Positions 39,993-42,618 of a stretch of 45,249 nt of DNA are shown piece by piece. The position numbers and the translations under genes were made by a program. This DNA comes from an uncultured cyanobacterium. GTDB lineage: Bacteria; Cyanobacteriota; Cyanobacteriia; Thermostichales; Thermostichaceae. The DNA is taken from positions 1 to 45,249 of the forward strand of contig CALFBB010000037.1 in NCBI GenBank assembly GCA_937944885.1, given 5' to 3'. How positions within the stretch are numbered: position 1 is the stretch's first letter; each line of letters opens with the position of its first letter. The notes under the pieces were generated by a model that did not search any database, had not been told where the DNA came from, and saw only the letters and a list, made by a program, of their open reading frames with translations.

Positions 39993-40907
39993 GTGGAGCC
40001 AAATCCTCAACCGACTTCCCTATCCTCTACCCCTGGGGCAAAACCGATGGCCAAGGGTAAGAAGAAGCGGCTGAAAACCGCCGGGATCCCTGGGCCCACC
40101 CTTTTTCAGGGGCAGCCCAGTTCCAAGCGCCGCAAGCTTTCGCGCAAAGATTACGAGCGGGAGTTGTTCCCTTTGAAGGTGGAGCTGGTGAAGCTGCAGT
40201 ACTGGGTAAAACACAAAGGCTTGAAGGTGGTGATTATCTTTGAGGGCCGGGATGCTGCCGGTAAGGGGGGCATGATTACAACATTGACCCAACCCTTAAA
40301 TCCCCGCGGCTGTCGGGTGGTGGCTCTGGGCGTACCGTCGGATCGGGAGCGAACCCAGTGGTATTTTCAGCGTTATGTAGCCCATTTGCCGGCTGCTGGG
40401 GAGATTGTCATCTTCGACCGCAGTTGGTATAACCGGGCTGGGGTAGAGAAGGTGATGGGCTTTTGTACGGAAGAGGAGTACCAGGAGTTCATGCGCTCTT
40501 GCCCCGAGTTTGAGCGCATGCTGGTGCGCTCCGATATTATTCTTTTGAAATACTGGTTTTCCGTTAGTGATGAGGAACAGGAACGGCGCTTCCAAAAGCG
40601 GGTTAACGATCCCCTCAAGCGCTGGAAGCTCAGCCCGATCGATCTTGAATCCCGCAACCGTTGGGTGGAATATTCTCAAGCTAAGGATGCGATGCTGGCC
40701 CACACCAACATTCCCGAAGCCCCCTGGTTTACGGTAGAAGCTGACGATAAACGTCGTGCCCGCCTCAACTGCATTCACCACATCCTCAGCAAGATTCCCT
40801 ACGAAGATCTGATCCCTGAGGCTGTGGAGCTACCCCCCCGCAAGGAAGGGGGAGAGTATCAGCGCCCACCCCGCAATGAGCAGTTTTACGTACCGTCGGT
40901 GTACTGA
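39993..40907 (+). CDS. ppk2: Polyphosphate kinase 2
   Basis: A 304-residue PPK2-family kinase that transfers phosphate between polyphosphate and nucleoside diphosphates or monophosphates. FEGRDAAGKGGMITTLTQ is the Walker A motif and IFDRSWYNRAGVEKVMGF the Walker B and lid start. RVNDPLKRWKLSPIDLESR and the C-terminal HHILSKIPYEDL are typical. The single-domain architecture fits class I. The first 45 residues are basic and poorly structured. The GTG at 39993 is supported by GGAG about 7 bases upstream; ATG 40047 is an alternative. The Pho-box-like array just upstream suggests phosphate control. Confidence 0.93.
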   Translation: MEPNPQPTSLSSTPGAKPMAKGKKKRLKTAGIPGPTLFQGQPSSKRRKLSRKDYERELFPLKVELVKLQYWVKHKGLKVVIIFEGRDAAGKGGMITTLTQPLNPRGCRVVALGVPSDRERTQWYFQRYVAHLPAAGEIVIFDRSWYNRAGVEKVMGFCTEEEYQEFMRSCPEFERMLVRSDIILLKYWFSVSDEEQERRFQKRVNDPLKRWKLSPIDLESRNRWVEYSQAKDAMLAHTNIPEAPWFTVEADDKRRARLNCIHHILSKIPYEDLIPEAVELPPRKEGGEYQRPPRNEQFYVPSVY

Positions 40908-40947: not shown

Positions 40948-42579
40948 ATGGCTTGGGCAGTCGGTGAGAAGCTACAGGGGGGACGCTACCGCCTTGAGTC
41001 GATCCTGGGGGAAGGCGGCTTTGGCATCACCTACTGTGCCTGGGATGACCTACGAGCCGACCAGGTGGTGATCAAGGTGCTCAACGACAGTTTGACCCGG
41101 GATCCCGACTACCCTCGTTTTCAGCAGAATTTCATCAACGAAGCCCTACAGCTGGCCCGCTGCCATCATCCCCATGTGGTCAAGGTGGAGGAGGTCATCT
41201 GCGAGGGAGAGCGCTGGTGCATCGTCATGGAGTTTATCCGCGGGCAGACCCTGCATCAGCTGTTGCGGCAAAAGGGATCCCTGCCTTTGTCGGAGGCGCT
41301 GCGCCTGACGCGGGAGGTGGGATCCGCCCTCAGTGCTTTACACGAGCAAGGGATCCTGCATCGGGACGTGAAACCTGCCAACATCATGGTGCGGGCCGAG
41401 TCTGGAGAGGCGGTGTTGATTGACTTTGGCTTGGCCCGGGGTTTTGCCCAAGGGATCCTGCAGCGGCACACCTCCTATGGCACCGATGGCTATGCACCCC
41501 TGGAGCAATACGACACCTGGCGACGGCGGGGAGCTTTTATCGATGTTTATGCTTTGGCAGCCACCCTGTACACCATGCTGACGGGGGTGGTGCCTCTGTG
41601 TGCGCCGGTGCGGGCCACCGGTCGGGAATTGGATCCACCCCAATCCTTGAACCCGGCCATCCCCGATAGCCTCAACCAAGCGATTCTGCAGGGGATGGCC
41701 TTGAAATGGGAGGAGCGCCCCCAGACCATAGCGGAGTGGCTGCAACTGCTCCCGGACAGTATTTCCGAGGCTACCGGTGTAGCTCCTCAAGGGGAGGACA
41801 GAGGTCAGCTTCCACCTGGGATTGGACTGCAAAGCGCCGATCTGAAAGCTTTAGAGGAGCTCCTCAGTAAACCGGCACCGCAAGATGAGCTGGAGCAACT
41901 TATAGCCAATTGCTCGGCGGAAGAACTGGAACGCATCGTTGCTCCACCTACCTCGGCCACAGTCAAAATGGCGCCAGATCAAGGAGCACTGATTTTTCCG
42001 GACGTACAGATGGGGTGGGGTTCCAGTCAGCCGGGATCGCAAGTCGGCTTGAACCCGGGAAAGGTAGCTTGGCCGGAGTGGGTTGGGGAAGCAGCACCTG
42101 CCTTTCAGAGATTGTGGGAGCGGTTGCAAGCCGGGCAATGGCAAGAAGCTGATCGCTGGACAACCGCCCTGATGCTGAAGATCGGTGGGCGCTTTCAGAC
42201 GGGCTACTTTACGCCGGAAGATATTCAAGCTTTTCCTTGCCCGATGTTGCGGTTGATCGATCAATTGTGGGTAAAGTCCAGCCTGGGGCGCTTTGGTTTC
42301 AGTGTGCAAAAGCAACTGTGGCAAGGCTTAGATACAAGCGGGACATGGACAGAGAGCACCAGCCGGCGAAGTGCCCTCCCCCGGGAAGAACAGATGGCGG
42401 AAAAGGTGGGTTGGTGCGTGCAGGGTCGCTGGCTGGGCTATGAGGAGTTGAATACTTCTCTACAGGCGGCCAAGGGGCATCTACCCGTCGGGTTCTTTTG
42501 GGGATATGCGGGTGGATTGCGCTCTGCCTTGTTGCTGTTGGATCGGGCGGTGCTGAAAAAAATGAATGCCTGTTTCTAA
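40948..42579 (+). CDS. Ser/Thr protein kinase fused to a GUN4 porphyrin-binding domain
   Basis: A 543-residue protein. The N-terminal eukaryotic-type kinase has GEGGFGITYCAWD (glycine loop), the lysine in VVIKVL (Lys43), HRDVKPANIM (Asp140) and DFGLA (Asp159), so it should be active; the kinase ends near 270. After a linker of about 110 residues comes a GUN4 domain (about 383-520): FQRLWERLQAGQWQEADRWT, IGGRFQTGYFTPEDIQAFPC and SLGRFGFSVQKQLW. GUN4 binds protoporphyrin IX and Mg-protoporphyrin and stimulates Mg-chelatase. The fusion suggests a kinase tuned by tetrapyrrole levels (inference). No membrane segment is seen. ATG 40948 starts 38 bases after the ppk2 coding end. The stop codon lies in a 23-bp tandem duplication. 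Confidence 0.93.
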   Translation: MAWAVGEKLQGGRYRLESILGEGGFGITYCAWDDLRADQVVIKVLNDSLTRDPDYPRFQQNFINEALQLARCHHPHVVKVEEVICEGERWCIVMEFIRGQTLHQLLRQKGSLPLSEALRLTREVGSALSALHEQGILHRDVKPANIMVRAESGEAVLIDFGLARGFAQGILQRHTSYGTDGYAPLEQYDTWRRRGAFIDVYALAATLYTMLTGVVPLCAPVRATGRELDPPQSLNPAIPDSLNQAILQGMALKWEERPQTIAEWLQLLPDSISEATGVAPQGEDRGQLPPGIGLQSADLKALEELLSKPAPQDELEQLIANCSAEELERIVAPPTSATVKMAPDQGALIFPDVQMGWGSSQPGSQVGLNPGKVAWPEWVGEAAPAFQRLWERLQAGQWQEADRWTTALMLKIGGRFQTGYFTPEDIQAFPCPMLRLIDQLWVKSSLGRFGFSVQKQLWQGLDTSGTWTESTSRRSALPREEQMAEKVGWCVQGRWLGYEELNTSLQAAKGHLPVGFFWGYAGGLRSALLLLDRAVLKKMNACF

Positions 42580-42618
42580 GAGCAGTTGCAATTGGTTTCT
42601 AAGAGCAGTTGCAATTGG
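42573..42618. repeat. Perfect 23-bp tandem duplication
   Basis: The 23-base unit beginning TTTCTAAGAGCAG and ending CAATTGG occurs twice without mismatch. The first copy contains the TAA stop of the kinase-GUN4 gene, so the second is its 3' flank. Confidence 0.95.

Follow-up and report, generated by a model that had tools for sequence, protein, structure and literature searches.

Described GUN4 proteins and kinase fusions

A cyanobacterial protein joining a kinase to a GUN4 domain was reported in 2005 from Nostoc PCC 7120, and a role in chlorophyll production was proposed for it (PMC1262709). A 2007 survey found GUN4 kinases in JA-3-3Ab (CYA_2756), JA-2-3B'a (CYB_0637), Crocosphaera, Trichodesmium and Anabaena, and classed CYA_2756 and CYB_0637, both from hot-spring strains, as cbSTKII GUN4 (PMC2176072). 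A tetrapyrrole-sensing role for GUN4 fused to kinases, caspases, trypsin or TIR was put forward in 2020 (PMC7159879). Phe196 and Arg214 of Synechocystis Gun4 (F191 and R211 in Arabidopsis) are porphyrin-binding residues, and when either of the Arabidopsis residues is replaced, porphyrins are bound only 2- to 12-fold more weakly (PMC8967248). The LxNxLR motif, which includes Asn211, is the bilin motif. Orthologues, Thermostichales ones included, retain it; paralogues lack it and have been proposed to have lost binding, and one Asn substitution abolishes phycocyanobilin binding by Chlamydomonas GUN4 (PMC10156173). This 2023 paper describes paralogues as having lost the motif, and its main text does not contain the word kinase; the count of motif loss given below for kinase-fused GUN4 domains comes from the present analysis. 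Our literature search turned up no experiments on a kinase-GUN4 protein.

The DNA analyzed here (the window) is a stretch of 45,249 nucleotides of contig 37, which hosts a kinase-GUN4 gene, in an assembly of 2.82 Mb that is 95% complete. Two of the genomes compared (G004 and G005) are, we assume, Synechococcus JA-3-3Ab and JA-2-3B'a, hot-spring Thermostichales, and their orthologues of the window gene are likely CYA_2756 and CYB_0637, since the positions fit the locus numbers. CYA_2756 and CYB_0637 are most likely orthologues of the window gene and resemble it in architecture and lineage, but they differ from it in sequence (73-74% identity) and in having an HtrA-type protease gene upstream, not the gene for polyphosphate kinase 2 (PPK2). 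The Nostoc/Anabaena PCC 7120 protein (gi 17134087, PMC1262709; alr4949, PMC2176072), likened by its description, has the same domain order. Other filamentous relatives (e.g. G088, G109) carry hypervariable tails, unlike the window gene. Architecture and chlorophyll inference are thus both already known: an earlier note on this DNA correctly held that GUN4 fusions were on record in cyanobacteria, as the 2005, 2007 and 2020 literature confirms, but the novelty that it saw in the biology of a pigment-linked kinase had been anticipated by the same chlorophyll proposal in 2005 (PMC1262709).

The fusion gene and its kinase domain

The kinase-GUN4 fusion gene lies at 40948..42579 on the + strand, as do all of its features given below, and encodes 543 aa between an ATG start at 40948 and a TAA stop at 42577-42579. 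The frame is open slightly further upstream (TTG 40942), and the N-terminus MAWAVGE is kept in orthologues. Full-length orthologues are encoded in 5/5 genus mates searched, at 73-81% identity, which together with low dN/dS in both domains shows that the fusion ORF is not a product of chance. An exact 23-bp tandem duplication (42573-42618, TTTCTAAGAGCAGTTGCAATTGG twice) spans the stop codon of the gene.

The N-terminal part is a predicted Hanks-type Ser/Thr kinase domain (40987..41751, residues 14-268). Pfam Pkinase matches residues 14-219 with E 3.9e-39 and 135 bits against a cut-off of 31.7, and the nearest solved structures in a PDB sequence search are those of the bacterial kinases PknE, StkP and PknB, types with which NCBIfam also places it. 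The glycine-rich loop GEGGFGITY (41008..41034, residues 21-29) is followed by catalytic Lys43 in VVIK (41074..41076), Glu65, the catalytic loop HRDVKPAN (41359..41382, residues 138-145) with HRD at 138-140 and Asn145, and the DFG motif (41422..41430, residues 159-161); GTDGYAPLEQ is also present. With this complete set of catalytic residues and a profile match above cut-off, the statement in the earlier note that the catalytic residues are intact is borne out, and kinase activity is predicted. A linker (41752..42099, residues 269-384) without domain match joins the kinase to the GUN4 domain. It is fast evolving (mean identity 0.56, dN/dS 0.26), yet a DELEQLL..SAEELE patch within it is conserved in the genus.

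The GUN4 domain and its ligand segment

The C-terminal part contains a GUN4 domain (Pfam extent 42100..42492, residues 385-515; 2.8e-32, 112 bits against a cut-off of 29.2) and matches the solved Gun4 structures 1z3x (1.3e-14) and 1y6i in PDB sequence searches. The clear GUN4 domain with GRFGFSVQ (42286..42309) that had been claimed from the letters alone is therefore present. According to column counts, however, this motif is common to GUN4 orthologues and paralogues, and FGFSVQ is equally frequent in paralogues without the tetrapyrrole motif, so that it marks the fold and not the ligand function. The Pfam match covers positions 7-126 of the 141 in the profile and stops before the ligand motif.

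Ligand residues were compared in an alignment of 89 cyanobacterial GUN4 domains, taken from the genomes searched and the loci of named records, with Synechocystis numbering anchored on PDB sequence 1y6i; the fragments L180 and L181 were excluded from the final residue counts. F196, L209, N211, L213 and R214 are all kept in 38/38 free Gun4 orthologues, including the Gun4 of the window's own genome, a separate canonical protein of 154 aa with GHLPLSNQLRG. LxNxLR is found in 0/20 kinase-fused GUN4 domains and in 0/31 other paralogues, the paralogues collected being the top-scoring ones and not a random sample, and neither F196 nor R214 occurs in any of the 20 kinase-fused domains. At the five positions the window protein has Leu, Val, Phe, Trp and Gly, respectively. 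GHLP is kept just before them and is followed by VGFFWGYAGGL (together 42475..42519), which is conserved in the genus and stands in place of the LxNxLR bilin/porphyrin motif (Synechocystis 209-214). At the position of Synechocystis W192 the window protein has Tyr, the same as the orthologues.

Free Gun4 (Sll0558 type; PDB 1y6i, 1z3x) and the window protein thus share the GUN4 core, GHLP and FG[FY]SVQ, whereas F196 and LxNxLR of free Gun4 are both missing from the fused domain, which in this genus only has about 16 extra residues between QLW and GW. The window domain resembles the Sll1380-type GUN4 paralogue clade (PMC10156173) in lacking Asn211 and most of LxNxLR, Sll1380 itself being compared by description only. 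Judged by LxNxLR, Phe196 and Arg214, none of which it has, the window domain is not classed with the tetrapyrrole-binding Gun4 orthologues. Sensing of protoporphyrin or Mg-protoporphyrin by this domain, as put forward in the earlier note, is not supported, F196, N211, L213 and R214 all being absent. Because known point mutants lose only 2- to 12-fold in porphyrin affinity, these losses cast strong doubt on tetrapyrrole sensing without refuting it, and the fused domain may bind porphyrins weakly. An AlphaFold2 model of the GUN4 part (two-row alignment) had a pLDDT of 38 and was set aside.

Paralogy and history of the fusion

A GUN4 tree was built from core columns only, with the LxNxLR segment removed so that the motif could not drive the grouping. 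In this tree, which has few columns and does not resolve finer branching, the free orthologues, including the free Gun4 of the window's genome, form one clade (SH-aLRT 100), and the Thermostichales fusions fall outside it. The fused domain is therefore a GUN4 paralogue, and its tail, GHLPVGFFWGYxGGL, is remodelled yet conserved.

In the kinase tree, one supported clade (98/94) holds 19 kinase-GUN4 proteins, ranging from those of Thermostichales to those of filamentous cyanobacteria, and also one Symploca kinase without GUN4. By its N-terminal kinase, its C-terminal GUN4 and the place of its kinase in this common clade, the window protein is assigned to the cyanobacterial cbSTKII GUN4 family. 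Two G109 fusions group elsewhere in the kinase tree, and the kinase type of locus L181 is also separate from the main clade, suggesting that the kinase-GUN4 fusion probably arose more than once. L181 (G002 C38) encodes this other kinase type (DFGAVK), then a hydrophobic, probably membrane-spanning stretch and then GUN4, with a stop between, which lies within the GUN4 match. A similar layout, in one frame, is seen at L290, on a Stanieria plasmid.

Conservation and gene neighborhood

Six genus sequences were used for identity and dN/dS. Mean identity is 0.86 for the kinase, 0.75 for the GUN4 core and 0.80 for the tail (GHLPVGFFWGYxGGL..LDR..LKK..AC), with dN/dS of 0.09, 0.11 and 0.13, ratios that are rough because dS exceeds 1. 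Both domains are under purifying selection, and the conservation of the tail within the genus argues against decay. Of the two family mates, G002 also has kinase-GUN4 as a fusion; in G003, kinase and GUN4 are encoded separately by two ORFs that overlap, either a natural split or an assembly frameshift.

In the window, a PPK2 gene (39993-40907) on the same strand ends 40 bp ahead of the start of kinase-GUN4. The window, G007 and G008 share this upstream PPK2 gene as well as a P-type ATPase gene on the downstream side, and PPK2 and kinase-GUN4 are possibly co-transcribed there. Judged from translations, the neighbor in G004-G006 is an HtrA-type protease and not PPK2, and those in G002 are an ammonium-transporter-like gene (amt) and aspS. 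In G003, the kinase-GUN4 gene is directly downstream of a heme oxygenase gene (L089, 536-1270 and 1411-3295, reverse-complement coordinates). PPK2 was considered as an operon partner and dropped in view of these other neighbors. Since neighbors vary among relatives, kinase-GUN4 is a unit independent of any operon partner. Its common kinase clade, spanning Thermostichales and filamentous cyanobacteria, marks it as an old unit, retained while gene neighbors change.

Possible roles of the GUN4 module

The fused GUN4 domain has lost the known binding residues for chlorophyll precursors and is therefore probably a sensor of something else. We lean, with a little more confidence than doubt, toward a kinase whose regulation or targeting depends on a repurposed GUN4 module that recognizes a ligand or partner other than a tetrapyrrole. 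The protein would be a soluble Hanks-type Ser/Thr kinase of a thermophilic cyanobacterium of the Thermostichales (Synechococcus JA-type), and its C-terminal GUN4-paralogue module, with core kept and ligand segment remodelled, would control kinase activity or targeting. Binding of a different small hydrophobic molecule, or of a protein partner, to this module might switch or dock the kinase; work on Mg-chelatase would presumably be left to the separate free Gun4 of the same genome. Should the module indeed have another ligand, this would be a type of input new to bacterial Ser/Thr kinases. It counts against this explanation that a flat hydrophobic molecule might find a binding site in the aromatic VGFFWGY tail itself. 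The GUN4 module might still bind chlorophyll precursors or a bilin, with the kinase responding and coupling pigment supply to phosphorylation. The GUN4 fold is certain from Pfam and the solved structures, GHLP, GRFGFSVQ and the Tyr at position 192 are retained, a heme oxygenase gene lies directly upstream in G003, and the same idea is in print for Nostoc (PMC1262709) and for GUN4 fusions generally (PMC7159879). However, Phe196, Asn211, Leu213 and Arg214 are all lost, a single Asn substitution suffices to end phycocyanobilin binding in Chlamydomonas GUN4 (PMC10156173), and no tetrapyrrole gene adjoins kinase-GUN4 in the window, G007, G008 or G004-G006. We regard pigment coupling as doubtful, and keep it in consideration for two reasons: porphyrin binding is weakened, not lost, in the known mutants, and the new tail is aromatic. 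GUN4 fusions are labelled tetrapyrrole sensors in print, and the kinase-fused ones compared here have lost the known binding motif; given the residue counts, the label should not pass to kinase-GUN4 proteins untested.

The module might also need no ligand, serving as a docking domain that takes the kinase to the H subunit of Mg-chelatase or to another chlorophyll enzyme. The core GUN4 segment is conserved, and free Gun4 works via contact with ChlH (cited in PMC10156173), but Synechocystis without its paralogue Sll1380 does not show a gun4 phenotype (PMC10156173), and the additional fusions of GUN4 to caspase, trypsin and TIR (PMC7159879) do not suggest a single fixed ChlH contact, so that we consider docking of this kind improbable. 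A GUN4 part that has degenerated into a functionless passenger would fit the disappearance of the known ligand residues, but it is made very improbable by purifying selection, with dN/dS of 0.11-0.13 for core and tail, and by a replacement motif conserved across the genus; the reading as a remnant domain was rejected on dN/dS.

Variable tails in related GUN4-paralogue genes

In 20 GUN4-paralogue genes, mostly from filamentous lineages as judged from their families and five of them kinase-fused, the stretch after GHLP is variable DNA of 31-93 nt. The loci with variable tails are L133-L166 (e.g. L141, L152, L156) and L252; the window gene is not among them. G+T at codon positions 1/2/3 is 0.74/0.78/0.78 in the tails and 0.54/0.49/0.49 in the preceding 360 nt, and this bias, equal at synonymous sites, points to a cause at the DNA level and not to protein selection. 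The variable stretch is followed by a conserved 3' element, CTTCTCTCGCNTCNAGACTTGTAAACTGTA, which is read in all three frames (in 7, 6 and 7 of the 20 genes, from one common anchor). The orthologue pair G081/G125 is 87.6% identical before the tail and 84.7% after it, but the tails, 56 and 104 nt long, are unrelated; the longer one is 94% G+T and introduces an early stop. Element copies with at most one mismatch sit at GUN4 genes or what remains of them, except for one in G001; the 2-mismatch matches in other places mostly appear to be chance hits. The genome of the window contains no element copy, and within its genus the tails are fixed. Tails are not G/T-rich in L134, L165, L287 and L288.

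This looks like an undescribed DNA-level diversification of tails. A diversity-generating retroelement is unlikely as the cause, since tail lengths differ and the bias is to G and T, not A-to-N. No reverse transcriptase was present among ten neighbors tested at three tail loci, an Rfam search gave only matches far below gathering scores, and a narrow literature search found no description of such tail diversification. Speculatively, and with more doubt than belief, the GUN4 of the kinase family could have been repurposed from tetrapyrrole binding to open-ended recognition, the ligand segment being diversified in filamentous relatives by an undescribed DNA process that lays mostly G/T-rich stretches of variable length before the conserved 3' element; variable sensor tails would result, and the window protein would be a fixed version. 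At L142 (G053 C77), four GUN4-paralogue genes lie close together, two of them with kinases, and all four tails are different.
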